The position numbers and the translations under genes are program-made. The notes beneath the pieces were generated by a model that made no database searches, was not told the DNA's origin, and saw only the letters and a list, made by a program, of their open reading frames with translations. From an uncultured Spirochaetota bacterium (lineage in GTDB: Bacteria; Spirochaetota; Spirochaetia; Treponematales; Rectinemataceae): DNA of 57,964 bases. Shown in pieces: positions 34,445 to 44,696 of this stretch; the stretch's first letter is position 1, and every line of letters starts with the position of its first letter. Location of the stretch: positions 1 to 57,964 of the forward strand of contig CAIJMU010000077.1 of NCBI GenBank assembly GCA_903821875.1. Reading direction: 5' to 3'.

Positions 34445-34511
34445 ACTTTACTTAATCCCGGTTGACAGCTCGGCAATCCCATCCCATAATTACTAAAGTT
34501 AGTTAAGTAAT
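34445..34511 (+). promoter_or_regulatory. Promoter and candidate operators of the ROK-led cluster
   Basis: TTGACA (34462-34467), a 17-base spacer and CATAAT (34485-34490) form a strong sigma-70 promoter. TTACTTAA (34448-34455) before it and its complement TTAAGTAA (34503-34510) after it flank the promoter. The latter lies within a partly symmetric 23-bp element ATTACT...AGTAAT (34489-34511). This suits binding by the ROK repressor it precedes. Confidence 0.65.
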
Positions 34512-34534: not shown

Positions 34535-35644
34535 GTGGGCGCCTATGTCGCGTCGGACTTGAAAGAAATGAACCGCGCCGCTGTGTATGAACTCCTCAAG
34601 GCCAAGGGCGAAATCAGCAAGGCCGAAGTCGGCCGACTGAGCGGCATCAGCGCCCCCACCGTCATCAAGATCGTCGATTACTTCCGCGAAATAGGAGTAG
34701 CCAGCGAAGCTGGGGCCCTGCCGAGCGCCCTGGGAAGAAAACCAGTGCGGATCCGCTTCGAACCCGAGTCATCCCTGTCCATCGGCGCACAATACGATGG
34801 AGTACACCTGACCGTCGGCCTGGTGGATCTGGGGGGACGGATCCACGCACTGCGCCGTAGCGAGGCCTCTTCCAACCTCCGCGAAACGGTCGAAGGCAGG
34901 CTTCCCCGGGAGATCAAGGCTCTTTTTACGGAATCATCCCTGCCCTGGACCAGGGTCCACGGGATTGGCATCGGCGTACCCGCCGTCATCGACCGTGGAA
35001 AGGAACTCATCCGCTTCGCTCCCCTCGCAGGCCTCCGGGAGTCCTTCAACTATCGTCCCATCCTCGACAGGCTGGGGGAAGAACTCGGATTTCCGGTCTT
35101 CATCGAGAACGACGCCAACGCAGCGGCCCTCGGGGAAGTAGCCGCGCGAGGACCAGGCGAGGGCTGCGATCTTGTCTTCATCGAAATGGGGAGGGGCCTC
35201 GGCGCAGGACTCATCCTCGATGGCCGGCTCAGGAGGGGCTCGAGGCATTCCGCAGGGGAAATCGGCTATCTTGCCCTGGAAGGAGACCGGGTAGCCTCGC
35301 TCGACGAGCCTGGCTGGCTCGAGTCCCGAATGGATCTCGATTCCTTCTGGAATGAGGTATCACGCTGGGGGAGTCCCTCCGAGGCTTCGCTGACCCGCGT
35401 CGTCGACCTCCTGGCCCTCGCCCTCTCCAACATCTGCGTCTCCCTCGACATCGGCAGGGTTGTCGTGGGACAGGCGGGGCAGGAACCCTTCGGCCCCCTC
35501 CTCCTCGAGCGACTTGCGAAGGCCCTCTCGAAACTCTGTGTACTCGACGTCGTCTGTGACGCACCGCGTGCGCCCGAACCGGGGGTCACCGGAGCCGCGG
35601 GTGTCGCAACCGAAGCCTGGATGGCGAAGGCCTTCGCAGGATAG
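34535..35644 (+). CDS. ROK-family transcriptional repressor
   Basis: A 369-aa protein starting with GTG after GGGGAGG. Residues 1-65 form a MarR-like winged helix (VYELLKAKGEISKAEVGRLS, PTVIKIVDYF). The rest is a ROK sugar-binding fold (ENDANAAALGEVAARG, RGLGAGLIL, SAGEIGYL). The usual ROK zinc cysteines are absent after the SAGEIGY motif. Relatives are NagC, Mlc and XylR, which release DNA on binding a sugar. It heads a co-directional gene cluster that it presumably controls. Confidence 0.9.
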   Translation: MGAYVASDLKEMNRAAVYELLKAKGEISKAEVGRLSGISAPTVIKIVDYFREIGVASEAGALPSALGRKPVRIRFEPESSLSIGAQYDGVHLTVGLVDLGGRIHALRRSEASSNLRETVEGRLPREIKALFTESSLPWTRVHGIGIGVPAVIDRGKELIRFAPLAGLRESFNYRPILDRLGEELGFPVFIENDANAAALGEVAARGPGEGCDLVFIEMGRGLGAGLILDGRLRRGSRHSAGEIGYLALEGDRVASLDEPGWLESRMDLDSFWNEVSRWGSPSEASLTRVVDLLALALSNICVSLDIGRVVVGQAGQEPFGPLLLERLAKALSKLCVLDVVCDAPRAPEPGVTGAAGVATEAWMAKAFAG

Positions 35645-35723
35645 GGAATACTCTCGATGCTTCAAGCGGAACCCGGCCAGTCCAGGCAACCGCTCGATAT
35701 AGCGAAAGAACAGGAGGCATGGA

Positions 35724-36977
35724 ATGGATCGGATCCGTCGTATCGCGTTTGCGCTCGTCGCGTTCGCCCTCGTTGCGGGTGGACTGGCGTCCGCCGAGAC
35801 TGTCAAGATCACCTACTGGCAGTACTTCTACCAGACCAAGGTGGATCTCATGGACAGCCTCATTGCACAGTTCCAGGAGAAGAACCCCGACATCGAAGTA
35901 GAGCAGGTCACCTTCCCCTACGAGAGCTACAACCAGAAGGTCGCAGCCTCCATCCCGGCCGGCGAGGGTCCGGATGTCATCAACCTCTTCGGAGGCTGGC
36001 TGCCCATGTACGTCAAGGCCAGCTACCTCCAGGAGCTGCCCAAGGCCTCCTTCCCGGCCAGTTACTTTAAAAGCACCTATTACCCCTTTGTCGCGGACGC
36101 CGTCCAGTTCGGGGGCAAGTACTACTCCGCTCCCACGGCAGTGCGCACCCTGGCCCTCATCTGGAACAAGAAACTCTTCGCGGAAGCCGGTCTTGACCCG
36201 AACACCCCGCCCAAGACCCTTGAGGAGCTCGCGAGCTTCGCCAAGAAGCTCTCGAAGTACGATGCCCAGGGCAACCTTATCCAGGCAGGACTGGCGATGC
36301 AGCCCAATGGCCAAGGCCACAGCTACATCCGCGAAGTCCTCTTCCGCCAGTTCGGCACTGCGCCCTACGATGCCACCGGCCGCAAGGTCACCTACAACAA
36401 CGCAGCCGGTGTCGCCGCCCTCCAGTGGTACATGGACCGCATCCAGAAAGACAAGGTCGGCTATCCCAATTTCACTACCGACGACGTGACTGCATTCAAG
36501 GGACAGAAGGCCGCCATGAATATCGACGGCTCCTTCCGCATCGCCACCCTCAACGGGGTCAAGGACCTCGAGTGGGGCGCTGCCGAGCTGCCCAGCTACA
36601 AGGGAATCAAATCCAACTTCGCCTCCTTCTGGACCCACGGCATCGTAGCCGGCGTGAGCGGCAAGAAGCTCGAAGCCTCGGTGAAGTTCCTCCAGTTCAT
36701 CACCTCACCCGATGCCATGGAGCAGATGCTCGCGAAGGTCGGGGAACTCCCCGCCAACCCGAAGATCGGTGAAAAGCACAAGGACGATCCCTACGTGAGC
36801 GTCTTCCTCAAGGGTCTGCCCTACGCCCACGCCACTGCCTACGTCGACGAGGCCGGACAGCGCACCTTCTTCGTGGACATGATCGACGAGATCAACCTGA
36901 AGGGCAGCAAGAGCGCCGACGTCCTCAAGGCGACAGCAGCCAAGGAACAGACACTCATCGACGATTTCTGGAAATGA
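35724..36977 (+). CDS. ABC sugar-binding protein
   Basis: A 417-aa exported binding protein with CAGGAGG upstream. The signal peptide MDRIRRIAFALVAFALVAGG ends at LASA before ETVKITYW. The mature chain is a family 1 solute-binding protein (IAQFQEKNPDIEVEQV, GPDVINLFGGWLP, AAMNIDGSFRIATL). No lipobox is present. It is the first transport gene after the ROK repressor and defines the cluster substrate, which cannot be named. Confidence 0.93.
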   Translation: MDRIRRIAFALVAFALVAGGLASAETVKITYWQYFYQTKVDLMDSLIAQFQEKNPDIEVEQVTFPYESYNQKVAASIPAGEGPDVINLFGGWLPMYVKASYLQELPKASFPASYFKSTYYPFVADAVQFGGKYYSAPTAVRTLALIWNKKLFAEAGLDPNTPPKTLEELASFAKKLSKYDAQGNLIQAGLAMQPNGQGHSYIREVLFRQFGTAPYDATGRKVTYNNAAGVAALQWYMDRIQKDKVGYPNFTTDDVTAFKGQKAAMNIDGSFRIATLNGVKDLEWGAAELPSYKGIKSNFASFWTHGIVAGVSGKKLEASVKFLQFITSPDAMEQMLAKVGELPANPKIGEKHKDDPYVSVFLKGLPYAHATAYVDEAGQRTFFVDMIDEINLKGSKSADVLKATAAKEQTLIDDFWK

Positions 36978-36979
36978 CC

Positions 36980-37029
36980 GGGGTCTGACCCCAGGGCGAC
37001 CGGGAGGGACAAGCCCTCCCGATCGTCGC
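36980..37029 (+). terminator. Double hairpin between binding protein and permease genes
   Basis: A small hairpin, GGGGT-ctg-ACCCC (36980-36992), is followed by a strong one with CGGGAGGG (37001-37008), loop ACAAG and CCCTCCCG (37014-37021), extended by partly paired flanks to 36996-37029. No U-tract follows, so it is more likely an mRNA stabiliser or attenuator than a full stop. Confidence 0.65.
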
Positions 37030-37070
37030 AATTACTACTTTCCAGGTACCGAGGCGAAGGAGGCGGACTT

Positions 37071-37958
37071 ATGACTCTCGCGAAAAAGCGCGCGATGACA
37101 GCCTATGCGTTCCTGCTCATTCCGCTGGTGTTCTTCATCGCAGTGCGCTTCGGGCCCATGCTCTACATGATGGGGCGGAGCCTGACGGACTGGAGCCTCC
37201 TCAGGAAGACCAACCTTTTCCTGGGGATCGCCAACTTCGCGGCGGTCTTTTCCGATCCCGCCTTTACCGCTGCGATGGTCAACACCCTGCGCTACGCCCT
37301 GGTCGGCGCGCCGGTCGTCATCGCCCTCAGCCTCGCCATCGCCCTCCTCCTCAACGGCATCACCCGGGGCAAGGGCCTGTACCGTCTCATCTATGTCCTT
37401 CCCTACATCACCCCCATCGTGGCCGTGAGCTGGGTTTGGCGCTGGATCTTCCAGACCCCGCCCCTGGGTCTGGCCAACGGCATCCTGGGCGCCCTCGGGC
37501 TCCCGGCACAGGAGTTCCTCAACAGTCCCAACTCGGCCCTCTATTCCATACTCGGTGTCAACATCTGGGTGGAACTCGGCTACTGCGTCACGATTTTCCT
37601 GGCAGGCATCCAGACGGTGCCGACCGATTGCCTCGAGGCGGCGCGCATCGACGGAGCCTCCGAACGCAAGGTCCTCTCGAGGATCATCCTCCCCCTCCTG
37701 GTGCCCATCACCTTCTTCCTGGCCATCATGCAGGGCATACAGTTCCTCCGCATCTTCACGCCCGTGTACAACATGTCGTCCCAGGCCATGGGCGGCCCCC
37801 TCAACTCGACCAAGTCGGCGGCCCTCTACATCTACCAGACCGCCTTCACCAAATTCGAGATGGGCAAGGCCGCGGCAGCCAGCATCATCCTCTTCGCCCT
37901 CATCATGGCCGTGACCCTGATCCAGGTCAGGTTCTTCGACAAAAAGACCAATTACTAG
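37071..37958 (+). CDS. ABC sugar transporter permease (MalF type)
   Basis: A 295-aa inner-membrane protein with GGAGG upstream, six helices and an EAA loop (EAARIDGASERKVLSRIILP). It follows the hairpin after the binding-protein gene and is nine bases before the second permease. Together these form a CUT1 importer without a local ATPase. Confidence 0.93.
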   Translation: MTLAKKRAMTAYAFLLIPLVFFIAVRFGPMLYMMGRSLTDWSLLRKTNLFLGIANFAAVFSDPAFTAAMVNTLRYALVGAPVVIALSLAIALLLNGITRGKGLYRLIYVLPYITPIVAVSWVWRWIFQTPPLGLANGILGALGLPAQEFLNSPNSALYSILGVNIWVELGYCVTIFLAGIQTVPTDCLEAARIDGASERKVLSRIILPLLVPITFFLAIMQGIQFLRIFTPVYNMSSQAMGGPLNSTKSAALYIYQTAFTKFEMGKAAAASIILFALIMAVTLIQVRFFDKKTNY

Positions 37959-37967
37959 GAGTCGGGA

Positions 37968-38795
37968 ATGACGAGAGACAGGACACTCGCCCGCACGGGC
38001 TCCTACGTGGTGCTGACCCTTCTTGCGGTCGCCATGGTCTTCCCCTTTTTCTGGATGGTCCTGACCTCGCTCAAGGACGCCACCGAGATCTTCCAGCTCA
38101 GGCTCTTCCCGACCGACCCAAGCCTTGACAACTACGCGCACATCCTCCTCGGCAAGGGGGCGCGCTTCCCCATCTGGTTCGTCAACAGCATGATCGTCGC
38201 CATAGCCACGACCAGTTCGGTGCTTTTTTTCGATTCCCTGATCGGCTACACCCTGGCGAAGTTCACCTTTCCCGGAAAAAAGCTCATCTTCCTCTTGATA
38301 ATCAGCACACTGATGATCCCCACCGAGATGCTCGTCATTCCCTGGTACGCGCTGTCGCGGGCCATGAAGTGGGGCAATACCTACTGGGGCATCATGTTCC
38401 CCGGCATGATCAGCGCCTTCGGGGTCTTCCTGATGCGGCAGTTCATGTCGACCCTTCCCGACGACCTCATCGACGCCGCCCGCATCGACGGCCGGAGCGA
38501 GTTCTCGATATTCCTCTTCGTCGCCCTCCCCCTGGTCACGCCGGCGCTGGCGACCCTCGCCATCTTCAACTTCGTCGGCAACTGGAACGCCTTCCTCTGG
38601 CCCCTCATCGTTGCCTCGAAGCCGAAGATGTTCACCATTCCCGTGGGACTGGCCAATTTCTCCGGAGAGGCGGGCAGCGACTGGCACCTCATCATGACAG
38701 GCGCCACTGTCGCGATGGTGCCCCTCGTCATCGTATTCCTCCTTTTCCAGAAGCAGATAATCCGTGGCATCGCGATGACAGGCCTGAAAGGATGA
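37968..38795 (+). CDS. ABC sugar transporter permease (MalG type)
   Basis: A 275-aa inner-membrane protein preceded by AGGAG. It shows VFPFFWMVLTSLKDATEIF at the N-terminus and the EAA loop DAARIDGRSEFSIFLFVALP, as in MalG-like subunits. Its stop overlaps the amidohydrolase start by four bases (ATGA), so import and the next enzyme are translationally coupled. Confidence 0.93.
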   Translation: MTRDRTLARTGSYVVLTLLAVAMVFPFFWMVLTSLKDATEIFQLRLFPTDPSLDNYAHILLGKGARFPIWFVNSMIVAIATTSSVLFFDSLIGYTLAKFTFPGKKLIFLLIISTLMIPTEMLVIPWYALSRAMKWGNTYWGIMFPGMISAFGVFLMRQFMSTLPDDLIDAARIDGRSEFSIFLFVALPLVTPALATLAIFNFVGNWNAFLWPLIVASKPKMFTIPVGLANFSGEAGSDWHLIMTGATVAMVPLVIVFLLFQKQIIRGIAMTGLKG

Positions 38796-39829
38796 AAGCA
38801 ATGCGTGTAATCGATTCCCATGTCCACTTCCCCGAGGACCACCTGATCGACGACGGCAGCCATTCCAGGGCCGGAGCCAGCGGCAGTCCTGCCGGCGGCA
38901 ATCCTGCCGGCGGCAGTCCTGCCGGCGGCAATCCAGCTGCCGAGGTTCACGCCGCCGGAACCGGCTACACCAGTGGCCCCTCGGTGGACAGGAAGGCTCA
39001 CCCCTGGATAGAAACTGAAAAGATCCGCTGGGCTGCCGCCTGGCGTAATCCTGCGCCAAGGAAGGTCTCCTGGCCCGAGGGGGAACGCCTGTGGCGCGCT
39101 GAGGTCGAGGCGCGGGAATGGCTGAAATCCGTGGTCTTTGTCACAACTGGTTCTAACGATGACGCCTCTGCCCTGGTCGCCCGCAACCCCGGCATCTTCA
39201 TGGGCTACGCCCACCACGATCCGCTGTTGCCGGACGCCGCCGAGAGGCTCGAGCGCGCCCTCGGCCCGCAGGCCCAGGGCCAGGGCGGACTGCGCGGCTA
39301 CAAGATCCTCGGACCCGCCATTGACCGGAGGCTCGACGATCCCTCTTTCTATCCGCTCTGGGAGATAGCCCAGGCCCACGGGGTCCCGGTGCTCATCCAC
39401 TTCGGCATCATGGGTGGAGCAGGCGGCATCGCCAACCATGTGAACATCAACCCGATCATCATCCACGATGTCGCCAAGCGCTTTCCGCACATGCCCATCA
39501 TCATTCCGCACTTCGGCTGTGGCTACGTCTTCGAGACCCTCAACCTCTGCTGGGCCTGCCCCAACGTCTTCGTGGACACTTCGGGCTCCAACCAGTGGAT
39601 GCGCTGGATGCCCTACCCCATCGACCTGGCCGCGCTTTTCAGGAAGTACCGGGAGACGGTAGGAGCTTCACGCATCATCTTCGGCACCGACTCGAGCTGG
39701 TTCCCCAGGGGTTTTGCCGAAGCCTACCTCGATGACCAGGTGCGGGAGATGTACGACACCGGCTACTCGGCCGACGAGGTCGACGCCGTGCTGTACCGGA
39801 ACATCGCTGCCCTCCTCAAGGTCAAATAA
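38792..39829 (+). CDS. Amidohydrolase family 2 metal-dependent hydrolase with repeat insertion
   Basis: A 345-aa TIM-barrel hydrolase. DSHVHFP gives the metal-binding HxH; PVLIHFG and IIIPHFGCGY supply further histidines; FGTDSSWFPRG supplies the catalytic aspartate. Members hydrolyse amides or lactones or decarboxylate acids. The start at 38792 overlaps the permease stop; a second ATG lies nine bases on (38801). Residues about 31-50 are an inserted Gly/Ser/Asn/Pro/Ala repeat, in a loop just after the HxH motif. The position between importer and lyase suggests an early catabolic step. Confidence 0.82.
   Translation: MKAMRVIDSHVHFPEDHLIDDGSHSRAGASGSPAGGNPAGGSPAGGNPAAEVHAAGTGYTSGPSVDRKAHPWIETEKIRWAAAWRNPAPRKVSWPEGERLWRAEVEAREWLKSVVFVTTGSNDDASALVARNPGIFMGYAHHDPLLPDAAERLERALGPQAQGQGGLRGYKILGPAIDRRLDDPSFYPLWEIAQAHGVPVLIHFGIMGGAGGIANHVNINPIIIHDVAKRFPHMPIIIPHFGCGYVFETLNLCWACPNVFVDTSGSNQWMRWMPYPIDLAALFRKYRETVGASRIIFGTDSSWFPRGFAEAYLDDQVREMYDTGYSADEVDAVLYRNIAALLKVK
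38882..38941 (+). repeat. Four tandem 15-bp repeats inside the amidohydrolase gene
   Basis: Units at 38882, 38897, 38912 and 38927 alternate GGCAGTCCTGCCGGC and GGCAATCCTGCCGGC, the last one diverged. They encode GSPAG, GNPAG, GSPAG and GNPAA. Being a multiple of three, length changes would keep the frame. Confidence 0.93.
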
Positions 39830-39861
39830 GGTCATACTTGTTACATTCCCAGGAGGGATGC

Positions 39862-41319
39862 ATGTTCTCGCCCGTCTACGTCAAGCGTGTCCTCGGGCCC
39901 TGCTACGACAACTGGAAGCGGCTCTACGCGGACGATGCCCTGGCCGTCCACCAGGCCCATCTGACCTGCCTGGTGGAAAGGGGCATCGTCGAAGCCACCA
40001 CGGGGACTTCGATTGCCCGCGCCATTGTAGCGATGGAGTCGGATTTTGCCTGGCCGCAGAGCATCCCGGAGGGGGTCGAAGACCTCTATTTCGTCTTCGA
40101 GAGGGAGCTCGGGAACCGGATCGGAGAGGAATCCGCCGCCTACCTCCACACTGCACGGAGCCGGAACGACATGGACACGACCGTGTTCCGCCTCGCCCTG
40201 AAGCGCTCCCTTCAGACCCTGGCTCACGAAGTCCTCGGGGCGATACGGACTGCCCAGCGGCGCGCGGCAGGCCCAGGCTCCGAAAAGCTCATGGTACTGT
40301 ATACCCATGGGCAGCCGGCCAACGTCTCGACCCTCGGCCACTACCTGGCTGCAGTGGCTGCGGACCTAGCCGAGGGTCTCGAGGAGCTCGTCGCTTCGAT
40401 AGGCGCCGTCGACCGTTCGACGATGGGCGCCTGCGCCATCACCGGCAGCGGCTTCGACCTCGACCGGGTCCGGGTAGGCGCACTTCTGGGCTTAGACAGT
40501 ATTGTGACGAACACCTATCAGGCGATCTCCAGCTCCCACTGGCTCACCCGACCGGCCTGTGCCCTCGAGGCCATGTTGTGCGACCTCGTGCGGGTGTCCG
40601 CCGACCTCTTCCACAAGGCGAGCTGCGAGGTCGGGCTCCTGGACTTCCCCGACGCCCTCGTGCAGTCGAGCAGCATCATGCCGCAGAAGCGCAACCCCGT
40701 GATCATCGAGCACCTCCGGATCCAGGCCGGCATGGCCATGGGCAGCTGCGCCACGATCCGGGAGCTCTTCCGGGCGGCGCCATACCAGGACGTCAACGAG
40801 GTTGCCGACGCCCCCGTGAGCGCCTTTATCGATTCACTCGGGACTGCCGCCTCGGCCTTCGCCCTCTTTGCGGAAACGGTGGCGGGCATGGAGCCCAACG
40901 AGGCCCGTGCCAGGGAGATAGCCCTGCGATTCGGTGTAACTACGACGGAGCTCGCCGACGAGATGGTGCGCCGCGCAGGGGTGGGCTTCCGCACGGCGCA
41001 CAGGGCCTGCGCTGCCTACGCCCGTTCGGGAGGGGACCTGGCTGAGCTCCGCGCATCCTTCCAGTCCATCGCGGGCAGGGAGCTTCCCTTTTCGGATGCC
41101 CAGATCGCCGCCATCCTCGACCCTGCCCACTTCGTCGAGGTTCGCCGCCTGGCAGGTGGTCCAGCTCCCGAGGGCATGGCCGTGGCCCTCGCCGGACTTG
41201 CTGAGAGCCTTGACCGCTCGCAATCAGCCCTGCAGGCCATGGATGAGGCGGGGCAGCGTGCAAAGGCAGAGTTGTCGGCAGCCTGGAATGCGCTGCTGGA
41301 CGCAGGAAGGGATGACTAG
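39862..41319 (+). CDS. Argininosuccinate lyase-superfamily lyase
   Basis: A 485-aa enzyme of the fumarase/aspartase/ArgH superfamily; AGGAGGG precedes the ATG at 39862. It contains the signature loop SSSIMPQKRNP (catalytic serine), HTARSRNDMDTTVFR (the ArgH-like SRNDQ region reads SRNDM) and YTHGQPANVSTLGHY, where ArgH has HxQxAQP. These changes and the sugar-catabolic context argue against arginine synthesis. It probably eliminates fumarate or a related acid from an N-substituted adduct. The substrate is unknown. Confidence 0.8.
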   Translation: MFSPVYVKRVLGPCYDNWKRLYADDALAVHQAHLTCLVERGIVEATTGTSIARAIVAMESDFAWPQSIPEGVEDLYFVFERELGNRIGEESAAYLHTARSRNDMDTTVFRLALKRSLQTLAHEVLGAIRTAQRRAAGPGSEKLMVLYTHGQPANVSTLGHYLAAVAADLAEGLEELVASIGAVDRSTMGACAITGSGFDLDRVRVGALLGLDSIVTNTYQAISSSHWLTRPACALEAMLCDLVRVSADLFHKASCEVGLLDFPDALVQSSSIMPQKRNPVIIEHLRIQAGMAMGSCATIRELFRAAPYQDVNEVADAPVSAFIDSLGTAASAFALFAETVAGMEPNEARAREIALRFGVTTTELADEMVRRAGVGFRTAHRACAAYARSGGDLAELRASFQSIAGRELPFSDAQIAAILDPAHFVEVRRLAGGPAPEGMAVALAGLAESLDRSQSALQAMDEAGQRAKAELSAAWNALLDAGRDD

Positions 41320-41336
41320 GATGAGGATGTCCCGTC

Positions 41337-42344
41337 GTGGCTGAGTTCATCGGAATAGACCTCGGAGGCACCAAGATCAGGGGGGTGCTCACTGACCCTT
41401 CTGGCAGGGTTATCCTTGCACGGGAGGTCCTGACCCTCGCCTCCGAGGGGGAGGAAGCCATCTTCTCGCGGATAGCCTCGATTACCCGCGAACTCGCCCA
41501 TGGCGCTCCCGGCGACGGAATGCGACCCGAGGTCCAGGCTATCGGCATCTGCGCTCCCGGCCCCCTCGATAGCGCAAAGGGCAGGATCCTCGTCACCGAG
41601 AACCTTCCCTTCATCGACTTCCCCCTCGGACCGCGACTCCAGGAACTGCTTGGCTTGCCCGTCTTCCTGGACAACGACGGTGCCGCTGCAGCCATGGGAG
41701 AGTACCTTCATGGAGCCGGAAGGAAGGCTGATCCCCTCCTCTATCTGACAATCAGTACGGGTATCGGAGCCGGGGCCATCCTCGGGGGGAAGCTTTTCCG
41801 AGGCCACAGCTCCAATGCCCTGGAGGCGGGGCACATGACCCTGGAGCCCGAGGGGCCGACCTGCGCCTGCGGGAACCAGGGCTGCGCCGAGGTCCTGGCC
41901 TCGGGCACGGCCATTTCGATCGCAGCAACTGCAGCAGCAGCGGCAGCCCGGGAAGGGTCGGGGCCACAGACGGCCCTCTCCGCCTGGGCACAGCCCGGGA
42001 GCCGGGAAGCCTTCCTCGCTGCGGCAGGGGGCGACAGGGTCGCGGAAGCCATTGTTTCGGAGGCCCTCCGCTACCTCGGCATCTGCGCTGCCAACCTGGC
42101 GACCCTCTTCGATCCTGAGGTCCTCATAGTCGGTGGTGGTGTGACCAGGGCAGGACCCCGCGTCATCGAGGCCATCCGTGCGGGAGTCCGGGAGCGCTGT
42201 CCGAGGGTTGTTGCCGAGGGGCTCCGGATCCTTCCCGCAAGCCTCGGCGATGATTCTGGCGCCCTCGGAGCCGCTGCCCTGGCCGCCGGGGCCCTCGAAG
42301 TCCTCGGCCGCTCGGCGCATTCCGCCTCAAGAAATGCTGGCTGA
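41337..42344 (+). CDS. ROK-family sugar kinase
   Basis: A 335-aa kinase starting with GTG. The phosphate loop FIGIDLGGTKIRGVL, the catalytic region FLDNDGAAAAMGEYLHG, EAGHMTLEPEGPTCACGNQGCAE (ROK zinc site with three cysteines) and VGGGVTRAG are all present. Relatives phosphorylate glucose, fructose, N-acetylmannosamine or allose in the cytoplasm. It follows the lyase by 17 bases, so it may phosphorylate a sugar released by the upstream enzymes. Confidence 0.92.
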   Translation: MAEFIGIDLGGTKIRGVLTDPSGRVILAREVLTLASEGEEAIFSRIASITRELAHGAPGDGMRPEVQAIGICAPGPLDSAKGRILVTENLPFIDFPLGPRLQELLGLPVFLDNDGAAAAMGEYLHGAGRKADPLLYLTISTGIGAGAILGGKLFRGHSSNALEAGHMTLEPEGPTCACGNQGCAEVLASGTAISIAATAAAAAAREGSGPQTALSAWAQPGSREAFLAAAGGDRVAEAIVSEALRYLGICAANLATLFDPEVLIVGGGVTRAGPRVIEAIRAGVRERCPRVVAEGLRILPASLGDDSGALGAAALAAGALEVLGRSAHSASRNAG

Positions 42345-42345
42345 A

Positions 42346-43701
42346 ATGGATGCAGCTGCGATCCTGGCCCTCCTCGAAAGGGAGATGGTCGTCGCCCTGG
42401 GCTGCACCGATGTCGCGGCCATCGCCTATGCCGCTGCCCTTGCGCGCGATGCTGCAGCTGGGGCGTCGGAAGCGAAACCGGCCTCCCCTGCCACAGGGGA
42501 GATCCTGGGAATCCGGCTACGCGCGAGCCCCAACATCATCAAGAACGCGATGGGAGTAGGCATTCCCGGAAGCCGCTTCAGGGGCATGGCCCAGGCAGCG
42601 GCGCTCGGGGCGATGGCCGGGAAGGCCGATCGTGGCCTGACAGCCCTTGAGGGACTGCGGCAGGAGGAGGGGGACAGGGCGGCTTCCCTCGTTGCCAGGG
42701 GCCTGGTCCATATCGAGACCTTCGAAGGCAGGGCAAAGCTCCACATCGAGGTCGAAGTCGAACTCAGGGCCGGCCTGGGGCGGGCGGTCATCGAGGAGGA
42801 GTACGACCGCGTCGTGCTCGTAGAGGCCAATGGAAAGCCGCTCGTGCGCCTGGGTGGAGGAGACAGGGGAGCTGCGAGGGCCCCTGAGCCGGCCCTGCCC
42901 TCCCTCGCCGGACTCGTCGATTTCGTCGAGACCGTGGATTCGAAGCAACTAGGCATTGTCAGGAAGGCCATCGAACTCAACTCGGCCATCGCCGAGGAGG
43001 GGCTCTCGGGCGACTACGGCCTCGGTGCGGGAAAGACCCTCAGGGACAGCATGGCCCGGGGACTCCTTGCAGACGACCTCCTGGGACAGGCGATGGCGGC
43101 GACCGCGGCAGGCGTGGACGCCAGGATGGCGGGCTCGAACCTGCCCGTCGTGGCGACCACGGGCTCTGGCAACCAGGGCATCACCGCCACGCTGCCCGTC
43201 CTCGTGGCAGGCAGGCGGACCGGGGCCGAAGCGGAACGGATCCTCCGCGCCGTCGCCCTCTCGCATCTTGTGACAATTAGTATCAAAGCGAGGTTCGGAC
43301 AGCTTTCGGGACTCTGCGGCGCAGCCGTGGCAGGCACCGGAGCGGCCTGTGGCATCACCTGGCTCCTGGGCGGTACGGCCGGGGCGGTGGGGCATGCGGT
43401 CCAGAACATGGTCGGTAACATTTCGGGCATGGTCTGCGACGGAGCCAAGGGCTCCTGCGCACTCAAGGCCTCCACGAGCGCCGCGGCGGCCGTGCAGGCC
43501 GCCCTCCTGGCCCTCGGTGGAAAATCCGTCTCGGGCCTCGAAGGCATCGTCGAGGCCGACCCCGAGCGTTCCATCGACAACCTCGCCCGCCTGGCCAACG
43601 AAGGTTCCCCCCCCATGGATGCCCTGATCCTGGCGATCATGGTCGGGAAGGACGGGAGGCAGGGTTGTGCCGCGGAGGCCCAGGGGGCGCATCCCGCGTG
43701 A
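42346..43701 (+). CDS. CyuA-like L-cysteine desulfidase / UPF0597 serine dehydratase-alpha-like
   Basis: A 451-aa protein related to CyuA/YhaM. The cysteines that could hold an Fe-S cluster are in ALGCTDVAAIAYA (near residue 20), SGLCGAAVAGTGAACG and GMVCDGAKGSCALK. Such enzymes remove sulfide or ammonia from cysteine or serine to give pyruvate. The start at 42346 matches the family N-terminus, but the ATG at 42334, overlapping the ROK gene, is possible. It is coupled to the next transporter by a GTGA overlap. Within a sugar cluster it suggests an amino-acid moiety in the substrate. Confidence 0.82.
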   Translation: MDAAAILALLEREMVVALGCTDVAAIAYAAALARDAAAGASEAKPASPATGEILGIRLRASPNIIKNAMGVGIPGSRFRGMAQAAALGAMAGKADRGLTALEGLRQEEGDRAASLVARGLVHIETFEGRAKLHIEVEVELRAGLGRAVIEEEYDRVVLVEANGKPLVRLGGGDRGAARAPEPALPSLAGLVDFVETVDSKQLGIVRKAIELNSAIAEEGLSGDYGLGAGKTLRDSMARGLLADDLLGQAMAATAAGVDARMAGSNLPVVATTGSGNQGITATLPVLVAGRRTGAEAERILRAVALSHLVTISIKARFGQLSGLCGAAVAGTGAACGITWLLGGTAGAVGHAVQNMVGNISGMVCDGAKGSCALKASTSAAAAVQAALLALGGKSVSGLEGIVEADPERSIDNLARLANEGSPPMDALILAIMVGKDGRQGCAAEAQGAHPA

Positions 43702-44696
43702 AGGGGACCAGGCCCCCCGCTTCCACGGAAGCACCACTGCTTAAGGCTTTTTCGCTGGGCCTGCTCTCCTCGCTCTTCTTCGCCTTTACCTTCGTGCTGA
43801 ACCGGGAGATGGAGACGCAGGGCGGGCACTGGATCTGGAGCTCCAGTCTCCGCTTCTACTTCATGCTGCCCCTCCTCTGGCTCATCCTCCTGCGGGGAGG
43901 GAAATACAGGAGGGTCTTCGCATCGATACGAAAGGATCCCCTCCCCTGGCTCTTGTGGAGCACGGTGGGTTTTGGCGTCTTCTATTCATTCATCTGCATC
44001 GCCGCCTCCGGGGGCCCCTCCTGGCTCACCGCCTCGGCCTGGCAGCTCACGATCGTGGCCGGGGTCCTCCTGTCGCCCCTCTTCTACGCTGACAGGGCTC
44101 TCGGCATCAGGCAGGGCATCCCCCTCGGGCAGCTCCTCGTCTCGGCCCTGGTGCTGGCAGGGGTCTTCACGGTCCAGGCGGGCATGGGCGCCGGAGCTGC
44201 GGGGGATGGGGGGGCTGCCGACCCCGCCGCCTACCTGGGGCTCTTCTTCGTGGTGGTGGCCGCCTTCGCCTATCCGCTGGGAAACAGGAAAATGATGGAA
44301 TTGGTTGGAAGCAGCCTCGGAACCGCAGAGCGGGTTTTCGGGATGACCCTCTGCAGCATGCCCTTCTGGGGCATCCTGTCCCTCTCGGGGATAGCCCTGG
44401 GCATCGTGCCGGGCCGGACCCAGGTCCTCCAGACCCTCGTCGTCGCCCTGAGTTCGGGCATCGTGGCAACCCTCCTTTTCTTCAAGGCCACGACCCTGGT
44501 CAAGTCGGATGTCCGGAAGCTGGCCGTCGTGGAATCCACGCAGGCGGGAGAGGTGGTCTTCAGCCTCCTGGGCGGAGTCCTGGTCTTCGGCGACCGGAGC
44601 CCCTCGGCCCTGGCGATGGCGGGACTGGCGATTGTCATAGTCGGTATAATATCGAACGCCGCCGTGGCTGCGGCGAAGCCGGCCCGGAGCGGCTAG
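43698..44696 (+). CDS. Multidrug/metabolite transporter (EamA/DMT type)
   Basis: A 332-aa membrane protein starting with GTG at 43698, overlapping the preceding stop by four bases. About ten helices are seen, with FSLGLLSSLFFAFTFVLNRE first and a second half ending STQAGEVVFSLLGGVLVFGD. It resembles DMT multidrug-resistance exporters. It ends the cluster and its last bases overlap the convergent priA stop by four. It may expel a by-product such as an amino acid. Confidence 0.82.
   Translation: MKGTRPPASTEAPLLKAFSLGLLSSLFFAFTFVLNREMETQGGHWIWSSSLRFYFMLPLLWLILLRGGKYRRVFASIRKDPLPWLLWSTVGFGVFYSFICIAASGGPSWLTASAWQLTIVAGVLLSPLFYADRALGIRQGIPLGQLLVSALVLAGVFTVQAGMGAGAAGDGGAADPAAYLGLFFVVVAAFAYPLGNRKMMELVGSSLGTAERVFGMTLCSMPFWGILSLSGIALGIVPGRTQVLQTLVVALSSGIVATLLFFKATTLVKSDVRKLAVVESTQAGEVVFSLLGGVLVFGDRSPSALAMAGLAIVIVGIISNAAVAAAKPARSG

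Follow-up and report, generated by a model that had tools for sequence, protein, structure and literature searches.

We analysed a 57,964-nucleotide stretch of DNA (the window: contig CAIJMU010000077.1 of assembly GCA_903821875.1) from an uncultured bacterium of the Rectinemataceae (Spirochaetota). It carries nine co-directional genes on the plus strand behind a single promoter, encoding a ROK-family regulator, the parts of a sugar importer, an amidohydrolase (AHY), an ArgH-superfamily lyase, a ROK sugar kinase, a homologue of the L-cysteine desulfidase CyuA and an exporter (Table 1). The initial annotation, made from the sequence alone, had counted eight units and read them as a catabolic cluster for a sugar-amino acid or N-succinyl-like conjugate. 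The strong promoter and operators that it described are borne out. The promoter, TTGACA-17-CATAAT (-35 box at 34462, -10 box ending at 34490), matches at 11 of 12 positions and is the sole match within 13.5 kb. Moreover, the only two copies of TTACTTAA in the window, at 34448 and 34503, lie on either side of the promoter; 0.13 copies would be expected by chance, and two arose in none of 100 shuffles. The inverted TTACTTAA/TTAAGTAA repeats are thus a probable operator, predicted to bind the ROK regulator, which has both the ROK domain and an N-terminal helix-turn-helix (HTH) region. Its gene lies directly upstream in eight spirochaete loci, and AT-rich palindromes resembling these repeats are found just 5′ of the ROK gene at loci L038, L040, L041, L042, L044, L045, L090 and L092. 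Neighbouring genes overlap by a few bases, as had been noted: permB and AHY have ATGA in common (38792-38795) and CyuA and EmrE GTGA (43698-43701). The kinase and CyuA genes probably overlap too, with the CyuA ATG at 42334 inside the 3′ end of the kinase gene; were translation to begin at 42346 instead, the two would be separate.

Table 1. Features of the operon and its boundaries (window coordinates).
Feature	Start	End	Strand	Remarks
Promoter region and probable ROK operator	34448	34510	+	-35/-10 boxes inside inverted TTACTTAA/TTAAGTAA repeats
ROK-family transcriptional regulator, NagC/Mlc-like	34535	35644	+	PF00480; NagC model aligns from residue 9, N-terminal HTH region included
CUT1-type sugar ATP-binding cassette (ABC) solute-binding protein (SBP)	35724	36977	+	PF13416/PF01547
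ABC permease A, UgpA/MalF-like	37071	37958	+	Profile matches
ABC permease B (permB), UgpE/MalG-like	37968	38795	+	Stop overlaps AHY start
AHY, Amidohydro_2, COG2159/ACMSD-type metal-dependent hydrolase	38792	39829	+	Conserved HxH-H-H-D; candidate amidase
ArgH-superfamily lyase, proposed glucosaminyl-malate lyase (fumarate-releasing)	39862	41319	+	Sequence, tree, fold
ROK sugar kinase	41337	42344	+	CxCGxxGCxE zinc motif present
CyuA-like (SDH_alpha) L-cysteine desulfidase homologue	42334	43701	+	Glu25 position is Asp
EmrE/DMT-family exporter	43698	44696	+	GTG start overlaps CyuA stop
ackA, upstream boundary of operon	32919	34298		Divergent
PriA-like helicase gene, downstream boundary of operon	44693	46651		Convergent

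Conservation of the gene order elsewhere had been set as a test beforehand, and such conservation was found in spirochaetes, Thermotogota and plasmid loci. Among 294 genomes of the same Spirochaetes order, 18 encode the lyase; these copies are at least 48% identical, well separated from true ArgH at ~30%, and AHY (E≤1e-25) is present in exactly those 18 genomes. The nominal probability of two identical 18-of-294 sets is 10^-28, a value that is optimistic given the relatedness of the genomes. A phylum-wide search (247 Spirochaetota genomes, E≤1e-55) returned the window's own genome alone; as the matches listed were genomes already in the order sample, it contributes little. The order SBP-permease-permease-AHY-lyase holds in every spirochaete locus whose contig permits it, except L063, and the same block is found in 20 of 103 Thermotogota genomes. 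These five genes are the operon core. The ROK kinase, CyuA and exporter are accessory: of 19 spirochaete loci, not all on complete contigs, the kinase is found in eight (at the same position), CyuA in five and the exporter in one. The window's EmrE exporter had no BLAST match in the other spirochaete and Thermotogota loci, though L090 and L116 each have a different DMT/EamA gene. In the lyase tree, spirochaete rows are nested among Thermotogota rows, which suggests that the cluster has moved between the two phyla.

Plasmids carry more distant relatives of the lyase. Those of Alphaproteobacteria (~35-40% identity) lie in a sister version of the cluster that lacks AHY, and those of Deinococcus (32-34%) in a related version. 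AHY, CyuA, EmrE and FumA were not found in the plasmid loci, and a search of the plasmids with AHY gave no match. The CUT1 importer adjoins the lyase in all 18 plasmid records examined; conversely, searching with the SBP (E≤1e-60) retrieved 36 plasmid records, 34 of which also carry the lyase. As importer and lyase travel together, it is very likely that they act on the same substrate. Two close SBP relatives have no lyase nearby, one in Deinococcus sp. AJ005 (L143) and one on a Thermus oshimai plasmid (L142), where it adjoins aromatic-degradation genes. In the window the importer comprises an SBP_bac_1/8 protein and two MalF/MalG-type permeases, as is typical of CUT1 sugar transporters. The ATPase gene is missing from the operon; in Alphaproteobacteria a ugpC ATPase gene is adjacent. 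Comparison of the SBP with the PDB gave general sugar-binding relatives only. A AAGTAAATTATCTTATTGAC-centred intergenic sequence, probably an operator with a -35 box, is common to four alphaproteobacterial clusters (L116, L117, L128 and L129), 5′ of the SBP gene. The cluster is, then, a conserved uptake-and-breakdown operon of four phyla: Spirochaetota, Thermotogota, Alphaproteobacteria and Deinococcota.

The lyase belongs to the fumarase/aspartase (lyase class I) superfamily, having its SSxMPxKxN loop, SRND and TH motifs and fold. On sequence grounds, however, it is not an argininosuccinate lyase. Against TIGR00838, the argH equivalog model, it scores 220.6 bits and two of its orthologues 257.4 and 232.7 bits, all under the cut-off of 279.5, whereas a separate canonical ArgH in the same genome reaches 488.3 bits. 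ArgH and the window lyase have the superfamily fold and the SSxMPxKxNP signature in common, but PGYTHLQRAQP, QKKNPD and DLQEDKE of ArgH are replaced by YTHGQPA, QKRNPV and YQDVNExxD, as the initial annotation had seen. With these changes the arginine-side motifs DLQEDK and NPD are lost, and the orthologues carry YQDVNExxD and NPV. A clustering with true argininosuccinate lyases, which would have spoken against the first interpretation, was not observed: 38 argininosuccinate lyase (ASL)-like rows lie beyond a 100/100 branch and 13 ArgH rows form a group of their own (100/99). When plasmid relatives were added the window lyase remained in the ASL-like set, with the alphaproteobacterial lyases as its sister (99/96).

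Within the PDB, EDDS lyase of Chelativorans sp. BNC1 (PDB 6g3d) comes closest to the window lyase in sequence (phmmer E 2e-39) as well as in fold (E 1e-23, 25% identity). The catalytic and succinyl-binding residues are kept (R112, N113, T158, S281, K286 and N288 in EDDS numbering), while three substrate-contacting residues differ (H for Q159, V for D290 and D for Y320); the V and D are retained in the alphaproteobacterial and Deinococcus relatives. D290 and Y320 are listed among the substrate-near residues chosen for EDDS lyase engineering (PMC12363623). Retention of the former set together with a leaving-group pocket altered at D290 and Y320 indicates that the window lyase probably performs the same elimination chemistry with a different leaving group. 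The setting differs as well, in that EDDS lyase sits in a chelator pathway and the window lyase is surrounded by a sugar-type importer, kinase and regulator.

Other ArgH-like lyases were encountered in other surroundings. Two in one genome (L054 and L055, genome G240; 28-32% identity) belong to separate catabolic clusters: the first includes a CUT1 ABC importer and apparent MR_MLE and Gfo/Idh genes, and in the second the lyase is flanked by duplicated peptide-type ABC transporters. Both may represent further fumarate-releasing conjugate lyases. A distant lyase on a Haladaptatus plasmid (L125) has a similar setting, near MR_MLE and major facilitator superfamily genes, without a CUT1 importer. 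Lastly, a Streptomyces plasmid (L135) carries an ArgH-like gene in a non-ribosomal peptide synthetase-type cluster with ATP-grasp and pyridoxal phosphate enzymes, possibly for biosynthesis of an N-succinyl-type amino acid.

The genes that accompany the lyase elsewhere point to its products. In 12 of the 17 Thermotogota genomes whose contigs allow a judgement, the lyase gene is immediately followed by those for class I fumarase alpha and beta, and after these by malic enzyme in L087, L088 and L095 or an Ldh_2-type malate/sulfolactate dehydrogenase in L090. From these neighbours we consider it likely that the lyase releases fumarate. Glucosamine is, with somewhat less assurance, the probable co-product. 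Paroceanicella has the gene order lyase-ATPase-ROK kinase-nagB, its NagB scoring 242 bits against an equivalog cut-off of 236.9; Roseomonas has lyase-ATPase-ROK kinase followed by a SIS protein whose best match is NagB-II (313 bits, under the cut-off of 430). Kinase and deaminase-type genes in this arrangement point to glucosamine-6-phosphate. A GlmD-like SIS gene follows fumarase in the Thermotogota locus L093, and the NagB, NagB-II-like and GlmD-like genes are read as non-orthologous solutions to one step; the kinase role is likewise filled by two families, ROK and PfkB. As a pair, fumarate and glucosamine are well supported by gene context. PIG-L de-N-acylase genes recur: 10 of the 18 plasmid loci have them, as does Mesotoga, and the Deinococcus proteins align over their full length to MshB/Mca. 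This recurrence suggests that the glucosamine nitrogen probably bears an acyl group, in which case the succinyl part is more likely, indeed probably, carried on oxygen.

Two candidate indications were set aside. A NagA-like gene near the cluster in L047, L048 and L053 was dropped as support for an amino sugar, the further neighbours there being of alanine racemase/DapF/LysA type. A nucleobase or succinyladenosine substrate, prompted by a uracil-xanthine permease gene that follows the L052 lyase and by an 8-oxoguanine-deaminase-like gene at L044, rests on single cases.

AHY has an invariant H10, H12, H203, H240 and D300, the metal/catalytic residues of COG2159/ACMSD-type TIM-barrel enzymes, and its fold matches best to ACMSD/LigW/LigI-type proteins (mean pLDDT, the predicted local distance difference test score, a moderate 70.9). 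The window copy has a 15-bp tandem repeat of about four copies (38876-38934) that encodes a low-complexity SPAGGNPAGG segment within a variable N-terminal insertion; the ten other aligned orthologues lack the repeat. The CyuA homologue matches L-cysteine desulfidase (PDB 9he0/9fsl, E 5e-28) and keeps its three [4Fe-4S] cysteines and Cys23. CyuA adjoins the cluster in five spirochaetes, at two different positions, and in L095 lies between fumarase and malic enzyme.

Overall, we lean towards a ROK-regulated catabolic operon whose substrate is a glucosamine-malate conjugate with an acylated nitrogen, the likeliest candidate being bacillithiol (Cys-GlcN-O-L-malate; GlcN, glucosamine) or its fragments. 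Bacillithiol is Cys-GlcN-malate, and the deacetylase-amidases BshB and Bca act on it (PMC4360819). We propose it since it combines N-acyl-glucosamine, O-linked malate and cysteine in one compound; as the natural substrate itself it is a tentative hypothesis, as are the O-linkage, the cysteine part and the order of steps. The conjugate would be brought into the cell by the CUT1 importer, and its amide cleaved to free the glucosamine nitrogen by AHY in Spirochaetota and Thermotogota and by PIG-L in the other lineages. The ArgH-like lyase would then convert GlcN-malate to glucosamine and fumarate by C-O beta-elimination at the malyl part. A ROK or PfkB kinase would yield glucosamine-6-phosphate, which a NagB-type deaminase would convert to fructose-6-phosphate for glycolysis, while fumarate would pass to pyruvate through fumarase and malic enzyme and CyuA would turn the cysteine part into pyruvate, ammonia and sulfide. 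The bacillithiol enzymes BshA, BshB, BshC and Bca (PMC4360819) have the predicted GlcN-O-malate skeleton and PIG-L-type deacetylase/amidases in common with this scheme, but they make bacillithiol or detoxify with it, whereas the window operon would degrade it. BshC was not found in the window's own genome, which is neutral for this proposal.

Several observations weigh against the glucosamine-malate proposal. Its weakest step is the hypothetical role of AHY as amidase: the ACMSD-type relatives are mostly decarboxylases or lactonases rather than amidases. Furthermore, L063 (7013-7021) lacks AHY between permease and lyase, with no close AHY elsewhere in that genome. At the position of the catalytic Glu25, the window's CyuA and those of L043 and L044 have Asp (that of L095 has Glu), and the E25D variant of Methanococcus maripaludis CyuA is inactive (PMC12647591); from sequence, these Asp25 homologues possibly form a subgroup with another substrate. 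Removal of sulfide or ammonia by CyuA, as first suggested, is plausible, although the base Glu25 is replaced by Asp here. Nor do the PIG-L genes say much of the exact substrate, since the only NCBIfam models that they match are the four thiol-pathway ones; some of the proteins look secreted, which is as compatible with an extracellular glycan as with a small thiol. Zwf/6PGL genes beside two loci are equally compatible with glucose, the Deinococcus lyases show no clear grouping with the window lyase clade, and kinase, CyuA, PIG-L and NagB are each present in part of the loci only, some contigs being truncated.

The most serious alternative, though in our view an unlikely one, takes as substrate an aspartate-sugar adduct linked through nitrogen, for example N-(1,2-dicarboxyethyl)-glucosamine (formed from aspartate and fructose as their Heyns product) or a different Amadori/Heyns compound, which C-N elimination would split into fumarate and an amino sugar that is then phosphorylated and deaminated. 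Enzymes of the ArgH group usually work by C-N elimination, the scheme accounts for the fumarase, kinase and NagB/SIS genes, and it comes nearest to the idea of the initial annotation. It leaves the PIG-L de-N-acylases and CyuA without a role, however, and at EDDS position D290 the window lyase family uniformly has Val, where ArgH and EDDS lyase both retain Asp. We retain it in the Heyns form; no FraB/FrlB-type deglycase pattern was seen, and the Amadori/fructose-asparagine type was rejected. Less probable still is an N-acetylhexosamine ether or glycoside of malate or succinate, a muramic-acid-like unit released from an extracellular glycan by PIG-L acting outside the cell and imported by the ABC system. 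The PIG-L of Deinococcus ficus has NEW3/CBM9 domains and a signal-like N-terminus and that of Mesotoga has NEW3 and a signal-like N-terminus, glycans are the usual cargo of CUT1 importers, and Zwf/6PGL in two loci would fit; yet CyuA would have no role and no glycoside hydrolase recurs in the spirochaete and Thermotogota clusters.

That the enzyme is an S-(2-succino) lyase (2SL), splitting a succinated thiol into cysteine and fumarate with CyuA removing the cysteine and the DMT protein exporting surplus, appears improbable. 2SL is a lyase class I enzyme (cd01334) that frees fumarate and (N-acetyl)cysteine (PMC9706529), another superfamily member co-opted for fumarate release from a non-canonical conjugate, and CyuA and DMT genes are present in the window operon. 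However, 2SL comes with the yxe gene set, and neither YxeL acetyltransferase and YxeP deacetylase nor the amino-acid-type transporter YxeMNO was seen to recur in the loci examined; here the importer is of the CUT1 sugar type, and the sugar kinase, NagB and PIG-L/AHY would have no role. The gene set thus does not match that of PMC9706529 and the S-(2-succino)cysteine (2SC) pathway was rejected. There remains the very remote prospect of a diverged but ordinary argininosuccinate lyase in an incidental neighbourhood. RefSeq labels the relatives argH and TIGR00838 does return a score, but this is sub-threshold, the genome has its canonical ArgH, the arginine-pocket motif is lost in the orthologues of a separate clade and the gene order is conserved across phyla; true ArgH identity was rejected on score, second ArgH, motifs and tree.

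The first interpretation is therefore partly supported. A sugar conjugate that loses a succinyl-type part by C-X elimination stands, whereas the neighbours of the relatives favour GlcN-O-malate over an Amadori or N-succinyl amino-acid compound. Its remark that it knew of no described pathway with exactly this gene set agrees with our search of the open-access literature, in which no paper describing the cluster was found; nor, in that literature (subscription papers lie beyond its coverage), did we find a described breakdown of GlcN-malate, the glucosamine-malate part of bacillithiol.

In summary, the window encodes a sugar-conjugate catabolic operon with a probably new lyase specificity. We put forward, tentatively, that it is the first bacillithiol catabolic pathway, present in four phyla, with a new ArgH-superfamily C-O lyase acting on a malyl glycoside and an ACMSD-type amidohydrolase recruited as amidase. 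The natural breakdown of low-molecular-weight thiols, glutathione apart, is little known. If the proposal is true, glycosyl-malate C-O lyase would be a new reaction type for a superfamily routinely annotated argH, and that annotation would be corrected in at least four phyla. Even with another exact substrate, a widespread fumarate-releasing pathway for sugar conjugates would be defined.

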